Shown: positions 5,013 through 62,257 of the stretch, piece by piece | Numbering within the stretch: position 1 is the stretch's first letter | Layout of the letters: each line of letters begins with the position of its first letter | Assembly (NCBI RefSeq): GCF_003752595.1 | Contig: NZ_RKIJ01000009.1 | Location: 186,001-250,000 of the forward strand | Direction of reading: 5' to 3' | DNA from: Cellulomonas sp. PhB143 | Lineage (GTDB): Bacteria; Actinomycetota; Actinomycetes; Actinomycetales; Cellulomonadaceae | DNA length: 64,000 nucleotides | Notes under the pieces: model-generated | What the model saw: only the letters and a program-made list of their open reading frames with translations | Told to the model about the DNA's origin: nothing | The model's database searches: none | Made by a program: the position numbers and the translations under genes

Positions 5013-8000
5013 CGGACGGTCCCCCGACGGCGGCGCGTCGGCAGCGCGAGCAGCGCCACCACGAGGAGCACGAGGCCGCCACCGACGATCCACGGCGTGC
5101 GCAGCCCGTCACCGTCGTAGCGGACGGCGAGCGTGCCGGCACCGGTGCCGACCTCGAACGCCTGACGCCCGTCCACGGTCGCGGGCCGCAGCGCCCGGCC
5201 GTCGAGCGTGGCCGACCAGCCCGGGTCGGCGTGCTCGGCGAGGACCACCCGGCGCGGCGCGTCGGAGGCGAGGAGCTGCGCGTGCACCTCCGCGTCCTGG
5301 GCCGCGAGGTCGCGCAGGTCCGTGCCGTCGCCGGCGACGAGCGTCGCCCAGGCCGGCGGGACGGCGTCCGCGGCGTCCGTGCGCGCGACGCGCCAGAACA
5401 CTGCGGAGCGGCCCTGCGTCACGCGCTCGAGCCCGTCGATGGTGTCGAGCCGGGTCACGAGCTCGGCGCGCGAGCGCGTCGGGTCCGGCGTGGCCGGGAC
5501 CAGCACGCCGCCGACGCCCAGGTCCGCGAGCCGGTCCGCGACGTCGGCGCCCCCGACGGCGGAGATGTCCCCGACGACCTGCGGGACGGCGTCGGCCGGG
5601 GACGCGTCGCTGCCGACGAACGCGCGCAGCCGCGCGACGGCGGCCGAGTCCACGAGCTGCGCGCCGTCGCCGCGCAGCAGCGCGTAGACGATGGTCCCGT
5701 CCGGGCGGGTCTCCAGGGAGAGCACGCGGGCGAGCCGCGGTGGCGCCTGCAGCTGCTGGCCGACCGGCGGGACGACGGTGGTGGTCGTGGCCTGCAGGCT
5801 CCCGACGGCGGCCGGGCGCACCTGCGTGGCGCCGTCGGCCGCCGGGGCCGTACCGCCACGGTCGACCTCCGCGTCTACCCACGCCCACCCGGCGCCCACG
5901 GGCGCCGCCACGCACACGAGGACCAGGACGGCCGCGCCGACGTGCACCAGGGCGCGGCCGAGCCGCCCGCTGCGCGAGGCCGGCGCGGGACGCGGAGCGG
6001 CGGGGAGCTCGCCGTCGTCCCGGCGGCGCAGGCCGACGAGCCCGGCGACGAGCAGACCGAGGACGACGAGCGAGAGGGCCGGACCGGGCGAGCCGGGCAG
6101 GCTCGCGCCCGTCGCCGGGTCGACCGCGACCGTCGTCGCGGCCACCGGGACCGCCGTCGCCAGACCGAGGAGGGCGAGCACCCAGCCGAGGCGGGCGCCG
6201 CCGACGCGGGCGCGCCGGAGCAGCCCCACGAGCGCCGCGACCGCGACGAGGCCCGTCAGCACGTAGGGCGCCCACGCGGCCGCCGTCGTCCACGGGTCGG
6301 CCGAGGGATCGAACCAGCCGGCGGGCTCGCCCGGCCAGCCGAGAAGCATCTGCCACGGCTCGGCGGCGACCGACGCCGACGGCACGCCCGGCCCTGCGGC
6401 GAGGAGCCGCCAGCCGCCGTCGGTCCACGTCGTGACGACCTCCAGCAGGTACGGCGCGCAGACGACCAGGGCGGGGACGGCGACGAGCACGAGGTAGCGC
6501 CGGCCCTGGTGCACGACCGCGCCGACGACCACCAGCGCCACGAGGGCCGCGGGCAGCAGCATGGGGGCGGCGCCGACCGCGAGGGCGAGCGCCAGCCCGG
6601 CGGCGGCGGCCGAGCCGAGCGACGGAGGCGCGGCGGTCTCCGCGTGCAGGGTGCGGCGAGAGACGACGACCTCGACGTGGTCGGTGGCCTGCGCCCCCAC
6701 GGCGCGCGCGACGCCGTACGCCGCCCACGGCAGCGCGGCGTGCGCCAGGACCGCGCCGAGGTTCCCGCCGGCCAGCCCGACCAGCAGCGGCGGCGCGACC
6801 ACCCAGACCGCGACCGCCCACGACCGCAGCGCCACCGACCGGGTCACCGCGCCCGCCGCGAACCACGCGCCGAGACCGGCGAGCACGAACGAACCGATCA
6901 GCAGCACGTTCACCGCCGCCTGCAGGTGGCCCCCGGTGAGCACCGTGAACGGGACGAGCACCGTCAGGAGCGGGTCGGCCGGACCCTGCTCCCCCAGGCC
7001 GGTCTGCACCCAGCCGCTGGTCGCCGCGCGCCACAGGTCGCCCAGGGAGCCGTCGGCGGTCAGCAGCGCACCGCCGACGAGGCGCCCGCCCGAGGCGAGG
7101 GTGCCGAGCATCGGGCCGTACACCCACGCCGTCAGACCGAGCAGGACGACGGCCATGGCGGCGAGGACGGTGCGGCGACGCACCGCGAGCGCGCGCAGCT
7201 CCGACCGCTCGATCTCGGTGGGCGCGGTCCGCGCGAGCGAGCGCTCGAGGCGCGAGCGGCGCAGGTTGCGGCGCTCGAGGGTCACCTCGCGCCAGGTGCC
7301 GAGCAGCGGCGTCAGCGCCGAGCGCGGGACGGTGCTGGTGCGCCGGACGCCACCGCGCGCCCGGGAGAGCGGCCCGAGCCGGACGGCGACGACGACGAGC
7401 GCCGCGACGATCTCGTCCACGGCCTGCATCGGCCGTTTCGCGGCGAGCCGGTACATCGCCCGCACCGGCGACCACAGCACCGTGCCGACGATCAGGAAGG
7501 GCACGAGCGCACCGTGCACGCCGACGAGCCGGTAGTACATCTGCGACCGGCGCCGGGCGCGGTAGGTGTTGCCGGGGCCGGTGTCGATGTCGGGGCGCCG
7601 ACGGCGCGGCACGTGCACCGGGGCGTCGGTCGGGCCGGCGTCTGCCGGCTCCGCCGGCTCCGCCGCTTCCTCCACGCGCAGCCCACGCAGGCTCGCCTGC
7701 GCGTGGTGCACCACGGCCCGCGGGACGACGACGACCCGGTGGCCGGCGAGCCGGGCGCGCCGGCACAGGTCCAGCCCGTCGCCGAACGCCCCGTACTCGG
7801 GGTCCGTGCCGCCGAGCTGGTCCCACACGCCCCAGCGCACGAGCGCGCCGGCGAGCCCGACGGCGAGCACGTCGTCGCGCGCGTCGTGCTGGCCCTGGTC
7901 GATCTCGGCGACGTCGATCCCGGTCATCCGCCGCCCGAGCGGGGACGTCGTGAAGCCCACCTCGAGCAGGACGTCCGGGTCGCTCCATCCGCGCTGCTTC

Positions 8001-37615: not shown

Positions 37616-37646
37616 GCGACCGCCTGCCATGAGCGACCGCCTGCCG
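37613..37646 (+). repeat. 17-bp tandem duplication after DUF2505 stop
   Basis: The unit TGAGCGACCGCCTGCC plus one base occurs twice. Each copy provides a start codon (GTG, then ATG) and encodes the same hexapeptide MSDRLP, with 4-bp stop-start overlaps. Probably slippage rather than real genes. Confidence 0.7.
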
Positions 37647-37756
37647 TAACAATTTGGAAACAGCCGCTGCCCGCGCAGGGCTCTGACCTGCACCGATGCA
37701 GGAACGGGAGCCGGCCTCGCAGCTTTCGTCCGGGCAGATGGTTGACACCGGTGCCG
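37647..37756 (+). promoter_or_regulatory. upstream region of the cellobiose-type operon
   Basis: It contains an AT-rich patch (TAACAATTTGGAAACA, 37647-37662), unusual here, a small hairpin CCTGCA-CCGA-TGCAGG, and a perfect -35 TTGACA at 37742-37747. A -10 would fall inside the first operator half, consistent with repression by occlusion. Confidence 0.45.
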
Positions 37757-37794
37757 TGGTAGCGCTTCCATTCCGGTAGATGGAAGCGCTACCA
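37757..37794. promoter_or_regulatory. double CebR/CelR-type LacI operator
   Basis: TGGTAGCGCTTCCA (37757-37770) and TGGAAGCGCTACCA (37781-37794) are exact reverse complements of each other with 10 bp between. Each resembles the CebR/CelR consensus TGGGAGCGCTCCCA. They lie between TTGACA and the binding-protein gene, and a matching LacI gene ends the same cluster. Confidence 0.85.
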
Positions 37795-37841
37795 CCTGGC
37801 GGGGCGACCATCGCCAGAGTCCTCACGACAAGGGAGTTATC

Positions 37842-39155
37842 GTGCAGCGAAGCACACTCAGGAACGGCGCGCCCCGCAGGGCGGCCATGGTCGCGGCGGG
37901 CGTCGCGACCCTCGCCCTCGCCCTCACCGCCTGCGGCTCGGACAGCGACGACTCGGCCGAAGGCGGCTCGGGCGACAGCGGCGGCAAGGTCACGCTGACG
38001 ATCTCGACCTTCAACGAGTTCGGGTACGACGACGGCCTGCTCGACGAGTACATGAAGCAGAACCCGAACATCACGGTCAAGCACACGAAGGCCGACACCT
38101 CCCAGGCCGCCGGCGACGCGCTGCGCAACGCGCTCGGCGCGGGCTCGGGCGGCTCCGACGTGGCCGCCATCGAGGGCGACCAGATGCCGGAGTTCCTCCA
38201 GTACGCCGACAAGTTCGAGGACATCAGCGACCCGTCGCTCGACGGCCGCTGGCAGGACTGGAAGACCGCGCAGGCCACCGACGCCAAGGGCCGCCTGATC
38301 GGCTACGGCACGGACATCGGCCCGGAGGGCATCTGCTACCGCTCCGACCTCCTGAAGGAAGCCGGCCTCCCCACCGACCGCGAGTCGGTCGCCAAGTGGA
38401 TGGGCAGCACCTGGGACGACTACTTCAAGGCGGGCGAGGAGTACACCAAGAAGACGGGCAAGCCGTTCTACGACTCCGCGGGCACCATCCGTCTGGGTAT
38501 GGAGAACCAGATGCAGAACGCCTTCGAGAAGGACGACGGCACGATCATCGCCACGGAGAACCCCGAGGTGAAGGACATGTACGACCAGCTCCTCGCGGAG
38601 TCCGCGAAGGGCCTGTCGGCCGGCCTGTCCCAGTGGACGCAGGACTGGAACGAGTCGTTCAAGACCGGCGGCTTCGCCACCACGCTGTGCCCGGGCTGGA
38701 TGCTCGGCGTCGTCCAGGGCAACGCCCCGGACGTCAAGACCTGGGACATCACCAACAGCTTCCCCGGCGGCGGCGGCAACTGGGGCGGGTCGTTCCTGAC
38801 CGTCCCGTCGTACGGCAAGCACGTCAAGGAGGCGAAGGCGCTCGCCAACTGGCTCACCGCTCCTGAGCAGCAGATCGAGGCCTTCAAGTCGAAGGGCACC
38901 TTCCCGAGCCAGATCGAGGCGCTGAAGGACCCGGCGATCACCGAGGCGACGAACCCGTACTTCAACGACGCCCCCATCGGCCAGATCCTGACCGACCGCG
39001 CGAACGCCGTGACCGTCAAGCCCTTCAAGGGCCCGCACTACCAGGCGATCAACGACTTCCTCGCCGACGCCCTCGGCCGCGTGGACATCGACAAGGTCGA
39101 CGACGCCGACACGTCGTGGAACAAGTTCGTCACGGACGTGAACGGGCTCAAGTGA
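37842..39155 (+). CDS. sugar ABC transporter substrate-binding lipoprotein, CebE-like
   Basis: A 437-residue lipoprotein. The basic start MQRSTLRNGAPRR and a hydrophobic segment end in the lipobox LTAC, with Cys at about residue 31, followed by a Ser/Asp/Gly-rich linker and a type 1 extracellular sugar-binding fold (VTLTISTFNEFGYDD..., YGTDIGPEGICYRSDLLKEAGLP, AKALANWLTAPEQQ). It captures an oligosaccharide, most likely cellobiose or another beta-glucoside given the GH1 enzyme and CebR-like operators. The GTG at 37842 has AAGGGAG upstream. No ATPase gene is in the cluster; a shared MsiK-type ATPase elsewhere is expected. Confidence 0.93.
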   Translation: MQRSTLRNGAPRRAAMVAAGVATLALALTACGSDSDDSAEGGSGDSGGKVTLTISTFNEFGYDDGLLDEYMKQNPNITVKHTKADTSQAAGDALRNALGAGSGGSDVAAIEGDQMPEFLQYADKFEDISDPSLDGRWQDWKTAQATDAKGRLIGYGTDIGPEGICYRSDLLKEAGLPTDRESVAKWMGSTWDDYFKAGEEYTKKTGKPFYDSAGTIRLGMENQMQNAFEKDDGTIIATENPEVKDMYDQLLAESAKGLSAGLSQWTQDWNESFKTGGFATTLCPGWMLGVVQGNAPDVKTWDITNSFPGGGGNWGGSFLTVPSYGKHVKEAKALANWLTAPEQQIEAFKSKGTFPSQIEALKDPAITEATNPYFNDAPIGQILTDRANAVTVKPFKGPHYQAINDFLADALGRVDIDKVDDADTSWNKFVTDVNGLK

Positions 39156-55680: not shown

Positions 55681-55737
55681 CGAGCACGGGGTTACCGCCG
55701 GATCGAGCGACGCGATCCGGCGGTAACCGCGTGCTCG
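55681..55737. repeat. 57-bp intergenic palindrome
   Basis: Two 25-bp arms (starting CGAGCACG and ending GCGTGCTCG) with a single mismatch and a 7-nt loop AGCGACG. Unlike a normal terminator, it contains an AT-mixed GGTTACCGCC core and has no T-tract. It could terminate gdhA or be a dispersed repeat. Confidence 0.85.
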
Positions 55738-57939: not shown

Positions 57940-59094
57940 TCAGGCGGAGACGTCGGCCCCGCACAGCGCGGGGACGTCGCTCGGCTCGCCGTCGCGGCGC
58001 AGGCAGCAGCCGGGGGCGCAGACCGAGCGGAACGCCGGCAGGCCGCCGACGGTCGCCTCGTCGACCTCCTCGCCGCGGGCCAGGGCGGCGCGCTCGAGGA
58101 CGAGGTCGACGAGCCCGCGGACGAACGGCTCGCGGGTGCCGACCGTGCCGGCGCGCACCGCGGTCATGCCGAGCCGCGCCGCGGTCTGGATGGCCTCGGT
58201 GTCGAGGTCGTAGGCGACCTCCATGTGGTCGGAGACGAACCCGATCGGCGAGAGGACGACGTCGCGCAGGCCCTCGCCGGCGCGCTCCTCGAGGAGGTCG
58301 TTGACGTCGGGCTCGAGCCACGGCTGGCTCGGCGGGCCGGAGCGCGAGCAGTAGGCGAGCTCCCAGCCGACGTCGTGCCCGAGCCGCTCGCCGACCCGCG
58401 CGGCGACCAGGGCGGCGAGGTCGAGGTGCTGGGCCGAGTAGCTGGCGCCGGAGACCTTCGAGGCCGCCTCCATGGTGTCCGGGATCGAGTGGGTCACGAA
58501 GACCAGGCGCGCCGCCCGGGGGTCGCCGCCCTTCTCGGCGAGGGCCTCGAAGCCCTCGACGACGGCGTCGGTGTTCGCCTCGGCGAAGCCGGGGTGGTTG
58601 AAGTAGGAGCGCACCTTGTCGAACCGGACCGTCGTCGAGCCGCCCGGGCCGGTGCGGTCCAGCTTGCCCATCCCGTCCAGCACCACCGCGAGGTCCTCGC
58701 GGTACTGGCGGCAGCCCGAGTAGGACGAGTAGGCGCTGGTCACGAGGGCGACGGCGCGCTGGGCGCCGAGGGCCTCCAGCTCGCCGACCGCGTCGGCCGT
58801 GTACGGGGCCCAGTTGCGGTTGCCCCAGACCACGGGCAGGTCGATGCCGCGCCGGGCGAGCTCCGCCTCGAGCGCCGCCTTGAGCGCGAGGTTCTGCTCG
58901 TTGATCGGGCTCTTGCCCCCGAACCCGTAGTAGTGCTCGCCGACCTCCTCGAGCCGGGCGTCGGGGATGCCCTTGCCTGCGGTCACGTTGCGGAGGAAGG
59001 GGACGACGTCGGCCGGCTCGTTCGGGCCGCCGAACGAGTAGAGCAGGAGCGCGTCGTACGGGAGGACGGGTGCTGAGGGAGTCAGGCCGGGCAT
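57940..59094 (-). CDS. hemH: coproporphyrin III ferrochelatase
   Basis: A 384-residue ferrochelatase of the Gram-positive coproporphyrin type (CpfC), supplying Hem[23 protein letters not shown] is the N-terminal signature, [11 protein letters not shown] contains the metal-site His, and [20 protein letters not shown] the conserved Glu. The C-terminus has CAPGCC and a last Cys in DVPALC; with Cys in SSYSGCRQY these can ligate the [2Fe-2S] cluster known from actinobacterial ferrochelatases. I chose the ATG at 59094, which has GGGGAGG 8 bp upstream; the GTG at 59112 would lie before that site. Confidence 0.95.
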
Positions 59095-59217
59095 GGTCCC
59101 ATCCTCCCCCACCGCGGGTGCGCGCGGGGGCCGGATCCGCCCGGATCCGGGGCTCGCGGGTGTGACGTCGACCCGACGCGCCGTCAGATCCCCCGCCGGG
59201 ACGCGACGCCCCGCCCT

Positions 59218-59283
59218 CCGCCGAGATGTCGAATTCCGCCCCGGATTCGTCGAATCCTGGGGCGGAATTCGACATCTCGGCGG
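59218..59283. repeat. 66-bp near-perfect intergenic palindrome
   Basis: 25-bp outer arms match perfectly (from CCGCCGAGATG to CATCTCGGCGG), and inner 7-bp arms GGATTCG / CGAATCC meet at a central T, with one bulged T. EcoRI-like GAATTC sites lie in each arm. It sits in the 214-bp gap between the hemH start and the glucanase stop; no T-tract. Confidence 0.9.
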
Positions 59284-59308
59284 ACGGGTCCTTCCGGGGG
59301 CGGGGGCG

Positions 59309-62257
59309 TCAGGAGCGGGCGCAGGGGATCCCGTTCAGGGTGAAGGCGTCGGGCACGTCGACGCGAGAACCGTTCGTCGTGCCCACATACCCGAACGTCA
59401 CGCTGCGACCCGGCGCCACGACCCTGTTCCACCCCAGGTCGGACGCGGTCACGAGCGGCCCGTCCTGGACGGACGCCGCGCCCCACGCACGCCCGGCGCT
59501 CTGGCCGGAGCCCAGGTGCCAGCGCAGGTCCCAGCCGTCGACCGGCGTCGTGCCCGTGTTCTTCAACGTGACCGTCGCGACGTAGCCGCCGTGCCAGACG
59601 CCGGAGGCCGTGGCGCGCACGGTGCACGTCGACGGCAGCGGCTGCGTGACGCCGAGGTTCCCGCCGTCGTCGATCATCGTGCCCCAGAAGTGGAACCGGT
59701 TGCCGTCGTCCATCGTCGGGTTGCCCGAGACCACCACGTTCTTCAGGTGGTGGTTCCCGCCGACGCGGAACGCGAGGCCGTAGGAGCCCGTGTCCGTGAT
59801 CGTCGTATCGCGGACGGTCAGCTCGTTGACCCACTTCGACCCGCTGACGAGGATCCCCTCGTACGTCGAGTCGAGGATCCGGTTGTCCGACAGCACTACG
59901 GGCGTCGTGATGTGCGAGGTGTCGGCGAACACCCAGACCGCCCCGAACGACGTGCTCCAGTTCGGCTCCCAGCCGCCCGTGCGCACCAGGGTGTTGCCGT
60001 CCACGACGGTGGTGCCGGAGAACGGCACCGGGTTGAACCGCGTGCTCACCGCGACGCCCGCCGCCGCGGTGAGCGTGTCGCTCACCGCGTTGTCGGTCAC
60101 CGCGTTCGAGTCGCCGCCGTAGATCGCGAGGCCGTTGCCGAGCAGCGGCACCTGGACCGTGTCGTGGGCGAAGACGCTGCGCGTCACCGCGCCGCCCGCC
60201 GACCACATCGCCATCGCGTCGTCCCCGGTGTTGCGCACCACGCTGTGCTCGACGCGGCTGTCGCTCACCGACCCGTGCAGGTGCACACCGTCGGCGTACG
60301 TGTCGCGCACGCGCAGGCCCAGGGCGTAGAGCCCGTCGGTACCGGCGTCCGCCCACAGCCCCACCTTGGTGTGCTCGACCCACACGTCCTGGACGAGCGA
60401 CCCGGCACCGAAGCTGCCCTCGAGGGCCGCGTCGGTGTGCCCGTCGTCGCGGTGGTCCACGTCGCCGTCGATCATCAGGTCGGCGACCGTCACCCCGCTC
60501 CCCTGCGCGTAGATCCCGCCCTTGCCGTCGGTGCCCTCGAGGACGGAGTACCAAGGACCCGCACCGCGGACCGTCACCGCGTGGACACGCACGCGCGCGG
60601 ACAGCGTGAAGCGCCCCTCCGGCACCCAGACGCCGGTCCCGGCCTCCGTCGCCGCGTCGACCGCGGCCTGGACCGCGGCCGTGTCGTCGGTGCCGTCGTC
60701 GGGCGTCGCCCCGAAGCCCGTGACGTCGAGGAAACCGTCGGGCGCGGCCAGGGCGCGGGGCACGAGCTCGGTGTCCACCAGGTCCACCGTGTAGTCGAGG
60801 TCCGCGGAGGCCTTGTCCTTCTGCAGCCGCAGCGTCGTGCCGGCCGGCAGCGTCGGGAACCGCACGCGCGACTCGTCGAAGTAGCGCTGCGGGCTGCCGC
60901 CCGACGGGTCGTTGTCGTACGGGTAGCCGCCGTAGACCCACGAGTGCTCGCTCGAGACGGGGACGTCCGCGACCTTCTTCTTCCCGGCGTACACACCGAG
61001 GGAACCGATCTGCCCCGCGCCGTCGGCGGTGTCGGGGATCGACGCGCGCAGCACCAGCGAGCTGGTCGGCTCCGTGAGCCGCCACTCGACGTGGTCGCCC
61101 GCGTCGGCGAGCCGCACCGCCTGACGCCCCGACGCCTCGGCCGCGACATCGTGGAACGCGCGGCTCGGCGCGAGGATCTCGCCGTTCGTCAGACCCTGCT
61201 CCGCCTCGTGCTCGATGTACGGGACCGTCGCGCCGGTCTCCGCGAACGCCGTGCCCCGCTGCAGCACGACCCGGTCGAGGACGAGCGCACCGTCGTGCGC
61301 CGTCCCGGTCGCCCGCAGCTCGACGCTGCCGACGCCCGCGCGCAGGGTGACGGGCACGCCCACCTCGGCCCACCCGCGGGTCGCGGGCAGCGCGAGCCGC
61401 CCGAGCGCGGCACCGTCGGCGCCGAGCACGAGCGAGGCGTCGGCTCCGTCGTTGCGGTAGCGGACCGTGGCCGTCTGCGTGCCGGACTTCGTCGCATCCA
61501 CCGCGACGACGGCGCGGGCGCGCTCCGCGGACAGGTCCACCCCGTCCTCGGTCACGACGGCGCCGTTCGCGTGGAAGGCGTCCTCGGCCTCGTAGGTCTG
61601 GCCCTGGCGCGCGTGCGTGGACCGGAGGATGTTCGTGACACCGTCCCACCGCGTGTCCGGCCCGGTGCCCTGCTGGTCGCCGGGGTCGGTCTGCCCGCCG
61701 CCCGGCGTCGTGAGGTCGCCCACGGTCGTCAGGGCGACGGCGTCGATGTTGACGTTGCCCGTGTCGTCGTCGTCGAACCGGTAGGTCACCTGCTGCTCGC
61801 CCGCGTCGAGGTCCACGACCTCCTGGTGGACGAACCAGAAGCTCCAGCCCGCGCCGACGTCGGACGGCAGCTCGATCTGCCGGTCCTCGCCGCCCGCGAC
61901 CTGCGAGAGCGTCATCGTCGAGCCCAGGCCGTTCGCGTACCGGACGTTCAGCCCGTACTCGCCGGCGACCGGGACGTCGAGGTCGAAGGTGATCGACGCC
62001 GTCCCCGTGTTGTCGATGACGAACCCGTCGACGAACCCGCTGCCCGAGTAGCCGAGGTGGTCCGCGTTGACCCCCGCACCCCCCGCGAGGGCGGCGTCCT
62101 CCGCCTCGAGGGCGACGGGCAGCCCCGGGGTGTCGCCGGGCACGGCGGCTGCGGGCACGGCGGCTGCGGGCACGGCGGCTGCGGGCACGGCGGCGCCGCC
62201 CGCCCCCAGGGTGAGGGCCGCCGCCAGGCAGGCGGTTCTCCTGATGGTCGGTCGCAT
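59309..62257 (-). CDS. secreted GH87-like beta-helix glucanase with CBM35-type and CBM2 modules
   Basis: A 982-residue exported protein. The signal peptide ends in a 15-bp-repeat-encoded AVPAA region near residue 40. A CBM35-type module spans about 46-175 (ALEAEDAALAGG; GNVNIDAVALTT), and further CBM6/35-like modules lie near 220-345 and 350-500. A right-handed beta-helix runs from about 515 to 865 (LDVTGFGATPDDGTDDTAAVQ), with NTGDDAMAMW (Asp about 679/680) resembling the catalytic Asp pair of GH87 alpha-1,3-glucanase/mycodextranase. The C-terminal CBM2 is about 880-982, with a terminal Cys pair. The ATG at 62257 has AAAGGAG. Likely degrades fungal or biofilm glucan; family call moderate. 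Confidence 0.8.
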   Translation of the reverse strand: MRPTIRRTACLAAALTLGAGGAAVPAAAVPAAAVPAAAVPGDTPGLPVALEAEDAALAGGAGVNADHLGYSGSGFVDGFVIDNTGTASITFDLDVPVAGEYGLNVRYANGLGSTMTLSQVAGGEDRQIELPSDVGAGWSFWFVHQEVVDLDAGEQQVTYRFDDDDTGNVNIDAVALTTVGDLTTPGGGQTDPGDQQGTGPDTRWDGVTNILRSTHARQGQTYEAEDAFHANGAVVTEDGVDLSAERARAVVAVDATKSGTQTATVRYRNDGADASLVLGADGAALGRLALPATRGWAEVGVPVTLRAGVGSVELRATGTAHDGALVLDRVVLQRGTAFAETGATVPYIEHEAEQGLTNGEILAPSRAFHDVAAEASGRQAVRLADAGDHVEWRLTEPTSSLVLRASIPDTADGAGQIGSLGVYAGKKKVADVPVSSEHSWVYGGYPYDNDPSGGSPQRYFDESRVRFPTLPAGTTLRLQKDKASADLDYTVDLVDTELVPRALAAPDGFLDVTGFGATPDDGTDDTAAVQAAVDAATEAGTGVWVPEGRFTLSARVRVHAVTVRGAGPWYSVLEGTDGKGGIYAQGSGVTVADLMIDGDVDHRDDGHTDAALEGSFGAGSLVQDVWVEHTKVGLWADAGTDGLYALGLRVRDTYADGVHLHGSVSDSRVEHSVVRNTGDDAMAMWSAGGAVTRSVFAHDTVQVPLLGNGLAIYGGDSNAVTDNAVSDTLTAAAGVAVSTRFNPVPFSGTTVVDGNTLVRTGGWEPNWSTSFGAVWVFADTSHITTPVVLSDNRILDSTYEGILVSGSKWVNELTVRDTTITDTGSYGLAFRVGGNHHLKNVVVSGNPTMDDGNRFHFWGTMIDDGGNLGVTQPLPSTCTVRATASGVWHGGYVATVTLKNTGTTPVDGWDLRWHLGSGQSAGRAWGAASVQDGPLVTASDLGWNRVVAPGRSVTFGYVGTTNGSRVDVPDAFTLNGIPCARS
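62138..62197 (-). repeat. 15-bp tandem repeat at signal-peptide end of glucanase gene
   Basis: Four copies (last one diverged) of GGGCACGGCGGCTGC on the plus strand encode repeated AVPAA on the minus strand, just at the predicted signal peptidase site. Confidence 0.85.

Follow-up and report, generated by a model that had tools for sequence, protein, structure and literature searches.

A 66-bp palindrome past the end of a glucanase-domain gene

The window analysed here, a 64-kb stretch of the genome of Cellulomonas sp. PhB143, carries two neighbouring genes on the minus strand with a 66-bp palindrome between them, and a second palindrome of a different family. The features concerned are the following.

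55681-55737, plus strand: one copy of a second, 57-bp palindrome family, CGAGCACGGGGTT...AACCCCGTGCTCG
57940-59094, minus strand: ferrochelatase gene, hemH (PF00762, E 1.6e-72); its start may be at 59112
59218-59242, plus strand: left 25-bp arm of the 66-bp palindromic element, CCGCCGAGATGTCGAATTCCGCCCC, the exact reverse complement of 59259-59283
59243-59258, plus strand: inner 16 nt, with a 6-bp stem (GGATTC/GAATCC), a GTC loop and one bulged T
59259-59283, plus strand: right 25-bp arm of the element, the exact reverse complement of the left arm
59309-62143, minus strand: gene with alpha-1,3-glucanase domains and a C-terminal CBM_2 (Pfam)

The 66-bp element lies 25 nt past the stop codon of the glucanase-domain gene and upstream of hemH, which is the next gene in the direction of transcription; since both genes are co-oriented, the element is in a 3'-end position. 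The geometry described in an earlier note on this DNA is borne out, as the perfect 25-bp arms are continued by the 6-bp inner stem and the hairpin amounts to 31-32 bp, with one further T-A pair beyond the arms (59217/59284). Folded as DNA, positions 59200-59300 reach -49.4 kcal/mol, where shuffles average -23.4 (sd 2.7; z = -9.5), and the minus strand of 59206-59308 folded as RNA reaches -86.7 kcal/mol (z = -11.0), values equalled by none of 200 shuffles in either case. A scan of the entire window found a stem score of 17 solely here and at 55681-55737. A known RNA family was rejected: none of 4227 Rfam families gave a match at gathering score anywhere in the window, and seven loci that hold copies or related palindromes gave none but a tRNA.

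Copies, anatomy and pairing in the host genome

Searching the 17 contigs (3.2 Mb) of the host genome at the DNA level immediately ruled out a unique palindrome: 77 matches were returned, counting the two strands together. What had been taken for a single unstable oddity is thus one of at least 79 intact copies, of which 78 are 66 bp long and one is 67 nt. The proposal that its persistence implied recent origin or selection came closer to the truth, in that we find a dispersed repeat with a constrained sequence. The copy list consists of 76 places, a number reached after a covariance model built from 43 copies had been added to the DNA search, and three found by a pattern search for the arm, and it is a lower bound (the model scored 150 candidates, and 142 of 170 arm matches fall in the 76 copies). 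Two additional copies are split centrally by an IS30-like insertion sequence.

The consensus reads CCGCCGAGA-n-GTCGA-nnnn-n-GCCCC, then 16 nt, then the reverse complement. Among 75 copies, 11 of the 25 stem pairs never deviate; at the free pairs 10, 17 and 20, where 49, 33 and 47 copies deviate, the two arms are still Watson-Crick partners in 59, 63 and 61. In the 43 copies of the model, 97.6% of 1075 stem cells are paired (93.0% in shuffles) and 49 cells are altered on both sides (14.7 in shuffles). None of 500 shuffles reached the observed covariation score, the number of paired cells or that of doubly altered cells; two of the 500 reached the observed number of changed pairs and one that of pair types, and slid controls lay far lower, with the caveat that shuffling ignores kinship among copies. 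The inner 16 nt differ in sequence among copies, and their middle is the point of the IS30-like insertion in the two split ones, yet they hold a Watson-Crick stem of at least 4 bp in 63 of 78 copies, compared with 9% of shuffled stretches. Many of them pair in a shifted register; in one fixed register, between 16 and 52 of 75 copies pair at each of eight positions.

Because the arms and the inner nucleotides both keep pairing, it is probable that the strand adopts a self-folded form at some functional stage or that one arm serves as the template for repairing the other, and the compensatory change could stem from template switching within the hairpin and not from selection. The same pairing bears on the idea that the palindrome is a double-stranded site for a dimeric DNA-binding protein, for example a nucleoid or replication factor. 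Such a protein would fit the invariant blocks in both half-sites and the dispersed intergenic copies, but a dimer sitting on duplex DNA would not couple positions that it leaves unread, and here the free positions vary by copy and mostly match between the arms, with the stem of the variable inner nucleotides held as well. We therefore consider a dimer site very unlikely.

Two modes of spread were also considered and rejected. Nearby copies are slightly more similar than random (a likeness reached by 29 of 1000 permutations for copies up to 5 kb apart and by 86 of 1000 for those up to 3 kb apart), a signal too weak for local spreading as the main mode, and carriage by plasmids or phages found no support in a search at E 0.01, which gave no plasmid or phage match to the element.

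The earlier note had also raised an assembly artefact arising from a hairpin read. Sequencing reads do appear to break off at GC-rich hairpins of a related kind. An arm of the CCGCCGAGA.GT type lies near 14 of the 28 ends of contigs C1-C14, four of these being split copies, and at 10 of the 28 (on C2, C3, C4 at both ends, C7, C9, C11 at both ends, C12 and C14) a CCGCCGAGA[AC]GTGGG arm runs into roughly 100-280 nt of G/C-rich junk; similar junk occurs inside two loci (L028 from 9363 onward, L035 at 5149-5416). The copies of the 66-bp element, however, differ from one another with compensated stems, stand in distinct gene neighbourhoods and recur, diverged and in part at orthologous sites, in Oerskovia and Cellulosimicrobium genomes that were assembled independently, and we give an artefact practically no credence. 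The direction is in fact reversed: it is the assembly that ends at such arms, in 14 of the 28 contig ends examined. The ten breaks with junk fall at a further, apparently unreadable hairpin family, and we infer that polymerase fails at its GC-rich members, so that the assembly does not give the true number of members. More generally, such hairpins can interrupt the assembly of GC-rich genomes from short reads.

Position at gene ends, inside genes and in relatives

Placement was counted for 72 copies, those not known as coding at the time, with the element neutralised for gene calling. Convergent genes flank 35 of them, tandem genes 26 and divergent genes 8 (one of the latter, at C3:281656, locus L051, counts among the five coding copies described below), and three lie at the edge of the fetched locus. 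A stop codon is found within 60 nt in 58 of the 72, and at 17 of the 35 convergent sites no more than 40 nt are left besides the element. Element-free gaps of at least 40 nt in the same loci are distributed as 6 convergent, 68 tandem and 46 divergent, a baseline that is not independent because the loci were picked for their elements. The related copies in Oerskovia and Cellulosimicrobium are similarly placed, 31 of 39 within 60 nt of a stop codon and 20 of 39 between convergent genes.

This placement, the very stable RNA hairpin and the scant room in half of the convergent gaps together suggest a role for the element in the termination or trimming of transcripts arriving from either side. One could go further and regard the copies as a resident family of hairpins that terminate transcription in both directions or form mRNA 3' ends. 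Selection at every gene end, possibly acting via a factor that binds or processes RNA, would then preserve the sequence, and gene conversion in place of transposition would multiply it. The crowded convergent sites, which leave little room for another terminator, would agree with this, as would the unrelated hairpins that replace the element at some orthologous sites in three genomes of the same genus: an unrelated hairpin at the hemH site in G001, another at C1:304215 in G002 and a different long palindrome at C1:297968 in G003. Like an intrinsic terminator, the element is a stable G+C-rich hairpin soon past a stop codon, but its flanks are C-rich before and G-rich after, no run of U follows the hairpin, there is no T-rich tail, and a terminator scan gave no site at 59218-59283. 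G001, moreover, has nothing hairpin-like at one convergent site that the element occupies in the host; in favour of mobility, its aligned flanks at one convergent site are 8 nt apart, compared with 140 nt in the host. An ordinary terminator would also need neither a fixed length of 66 nt nor invariant blocks, and a strong one should be harmful inside genes, where five copies are found. The missing U tract, the fixed length and sequence and the intragenic copies lead us to rank a mobile hairpin, the reading that we prefer and develop in the next section, above a plain terminator, and we regard resident terminators as unlikely.

The five intragenic copies are in frame in genes for UreF, an ABC-F ATPase, a P-type (HMA/E1-E2) ATPase, an AMP-binding enzyme and an FHA protein, and they share one reading frame, AExS.SAP......GAEFDxSA or close to it. 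Owing to the palindromy, both strands have this same frame. Of 156 readings, it is open in 153 and another frame in 149, so stop codons alone are not enough to force the choice of frame. For UreF, the loop that contains the copy is either missing or different in each of the seven homologues aligned; the ABC-F copy sits in a linker, at a point where the sequence of the G001 homologue is unrelated; and the FHA copy occupies a linker that varies among four homologues and is too variable to prove the absence of the element in them. In the P-type ATPase the copy falls inside the hydrolase match, and in the AMP-binding enzyme inside the AMP-binding_C match, where a profile of 76 positions is stretched over 107 residues; downstream of the latter copy the codon score is negative.

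These cases are of unequal weight. Coding calls came from a custom gene caller trained on the window, and protein names, including PrmC and MFS below, are Pfam matches. The first coding test flagged 5 of 76 copies, of which the ABC-F, UreF and FHA copies were kept; L055 was dropped as weak and in another frame, and L094 because it lies upstream of the start of what is presumably a TetR-like gene. L052 and L051 were added after that test. The P-type ATPase and AMP-binding copies are the weaker cases, since the first test missed both and the codon score of the second is negative; they were assigned by reading frame or domain match, as was the FHA copy. Three further copies, L030 (at the N-terminus of PrmC), L032 (at the C-terminus of an MFS protein) and L094, would share the frame of the five and were left out of the count. 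With seven UreF homologues and one ABC-F homologue lacking the element, insertion is the simplest reading, and the coding copies, that in UreF foremost, are the best evidence for arrival in existing sequence.

Among relatives, C. arenosum (G010) has the same scaffold with another core, of the GTGAG type, and relatives of the same length with cores of the GTGAG or GTGGG type occur in Oerskovia and other Cellulosimicrobium. A scan for the pattern, with each species represented by one genome, found 35 stretches, all in Oerskovia or Cellulosimicrobium, with a pattern that itself fixed the outer and inner blocks, so that block conservation is not to be read from them. The three same-genus genomes (G001-G003) gave no match or one weak match, which may reflect old loss or horizontal arrival. 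Of 297 genomes sampled from the order, 7, the host among them, matched at E 1e-5, under stricter filters that lose weak matches. Matches in G087, G122, G315 and G332, from other families of the order, were rejected as members because they are other palindromes; the pair in G122 has CCGAG ends and a GGCCCC core.

Nine orthologous pairs from Oerskovia, which partly share members and are not independent, show exact compensatory Watson-Crick changes in five cases (two such changes between L138 and L151) and none in four. Conservation of the element clearly exceeds that of both 60-nt flanks in five pairs; in two further pairs it roughly equals that of one flank, and in the remaining two the element shows no excess. 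Two copies stand about 1 kb apart in each of O. merdavium, O. enterophila and O. turbata (L140, L141 and L157), with inner loops that are alike within a species and differ between species. This likeness hints at gene conversion between the paired copies.

Mobility, known repeat classes and other palindromes

Neither the host nor nine relatives have a match to PF01797, the Y1/RAYT transposase model, which is matched in 5 and 8 of 14 control genomes, and a RAYT-driven REP was rejected as a class assignment on this ground. Flanking direct repeats of 3 nt or more are found at none of 75 copies, and those of 2 nt at five, where 7.1 are expected; with target duplication absent, the act of insertion itself is not seen. 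Among the first 100 of 170 arm places no insertion sequence bounded by the arms was seen. Twelve of the listed places are arm matches without a partner, and of the six fetched, five stand in unrelated sequence and one is a split copy with a different insertion sequence.

These results weigh on the possibility of a classical MITE, that is, the terminal inverted repeats of an insertion sequence with a DDE transposase whose middle has been deleted. The element is an inverted repeat along its entire length, is dispersed and has inserted in genes, as such a remnant would. MITEs as a rule have target duplications, whereas the 75 copies have none, nor was a parental insertion sequence found among the arm places just mentioned; we think a classical MITE improbable.

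In the two split copies the insertion sequence, with ends GGCGGTYTCWRGYGGTSAGTGCAACACC, sits at the dyad axis, and the loop triplets TTC and GCC are found on both sides. The halves form the ends of contigs C3/C12 and C8/C13 (L248, L273, L251, L276), and their matching arms suggest that they belong together; each contig stops about 95 nt into the insertion sequence. At one end, 28 residues match plasmid-borne sequences in 71 records, and 8 of the best 15 of these are annotated as IS30 family transposase, at weak E-values of 0.02-0.4; this very short piece matched no Pfam or NCBIfam model. The insertions have 3-bp direct repeats, as opposed to the 2-bp repeats given for IS30 itself (PMC9333248). 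An insertion at the axis of a palindrome has a counterpart in ISRm22, described as inserting at the axis of a palindromic REP (Tobes and Pareja, 2006, PMC1525189), with a different repeat and in a different host.

REPs, tagged GTAG or CGTC, are described as dispersed palindromes located mostly between convergent or unidirectional genes near stop codons, with some copies intragenic and some families without a dedicated transposase (Di Nocera, 2013, PMC3733652). The present element resembles them in its many dispersed palindromic copies, mainly past gene ends. It differs in being a near-perfect 66-bp hairpin, while REPs are given as 20-40 bp, or 21-65 in an older definition that it just exceeds (PMC3733652, PMC1525189); in having no fixed GTAG or CGTC tag, CGT being enriched before the first C (30 of 151 ends, 27 of 76 copies on at least one side); in the lack of a RAYT match in all ten genomes, the host included; and in its actinobacterial host, as the word Actinobacteria does not occur in the main text of PMC3733652. 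RPEs are characterised as palindromic in-frame insertions in unrelated genes that add a short peptide, those of Rickettsia being about 150 bp long and noted for frequent in-frame insertion in genes (PMC10969869, PMC3733652). Our element shares with these the in-frame insertion in unrelated genes and the absence from homologues. Compared by description, it is shorter, and few of its copies are intragenic, most being at gene ends. SPRITE and other prokaryotic MITEs are presented as non-autonomous inverted repeats of small size, and a terminator-like form has given some of them their name (PMC10969869). Since defining features of REPs and MITEs are lacking and the likeness to RPEs is one of mode of insertion, we file the element under none of these classes. 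By analogy it would work like a REP or RPE, and its kind is a known one (REP, RPE, MITE). No description of such elements in Actinobacteria was found among the listed titles and abstract beginnings in the open-licence PubMed Central literature.

We therefore think it likely that the 66-bp palindrome is a copy of a non-autonomous, dispersed mobile hairpin element of the REP/RPE-like kind, a reading that draws on the many copies of one length, the fixed blocks, the complementary stems, the coding insertions and the clustering past stop codons. A folded single strand would be recognised as a hairpin by a mobilising enzyme, for which the invariant blocks may provide the contacts, and copies would persist where they are least harmful, either just past stop codons or as an in-frame linker of 22 codons. 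In transcripts from both directions the stable hairpin probably ends or trims the transcripts of the flanking genes. The element would thus be a mobile hairpin tolerated, and perhaps co-opted, as a two-way gene-end hairpin, its role at gene ends being a likely consequence of and not the reason for its existence.

The second family at 55681-55737 was called unrelated to the first in the earlier note. The core sequences do differ, but both families are dispersed palindromes with similar ends. The 57-bp family has about 14 copies in the host genome, some of them degenerate; with copies set in register, 11 of 13 start with CGAG and 9 of 13 have GC directly before it, comparable to the GCCGAG of the 66-bp element. 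At one orthologous site, G003 has a 61-nt palindrome of the CGAGCACGGGGTT type in place of the host's 66-bp element, and the 61-nt palindromes of G003 have the same ends as the 57-bp family.

A wider reading takes both families together, and we offer it tentatively, as somewhat doubtful. There would be a superfamily of mobile hairpins in the Micrococcales, of a fixed length divisible by three (66 and 57 bp), with a common CCGAG end and scaffold and a core that differs by genus; RAYT would play no part in their movement, which would depend on an enzyme that has so far escaped recognition as a transposase. Length and frame would make copies harmless 22-codon linkers in proteins, and elsewhere they would be two-way gene-end hairpins; with short reads stopping at GC-rich hairpins, many copies would be missing from assemblies, and the group has perhaps been overlooked for this reason. 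If the mobile reading of the 66-bp element is right, protein-coding palindromes and REP-like hairpins extend beyond the groups described so far, and RAYT-independent spreading of such hairpins exists in Actinobacteria. The mobilising factor should then be present wherever the element is and differ according to the core, and the compensated, genus-specific cores make a search for it concrete.

Several other palindromes came to light. The 120 kb read from G003 contains further long palindromes of 61, 67 and 73 nt. Near-perfect palindromes of 55-74 nt occur in related genomes at L187 12586-12652 (G003), L069 2003-2076 (G005), L122 1117-1171 (G059) and L194 13720-13783 (G064); these four, some with CGAG or GAGAT ends, possibly represent additional families. 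Within the window, the 42-bp palindrome reported earlier did not reappear at a stem score of 17. Among the 14 gaps looked at, the intergenic gap 37616-37886 holds a 40-bp palindrome scoring 16, GTGGTAGCGCTTCCAT...ATGGAAGCGCTACCAC, which resembles an operator of a LacI-type regulator.
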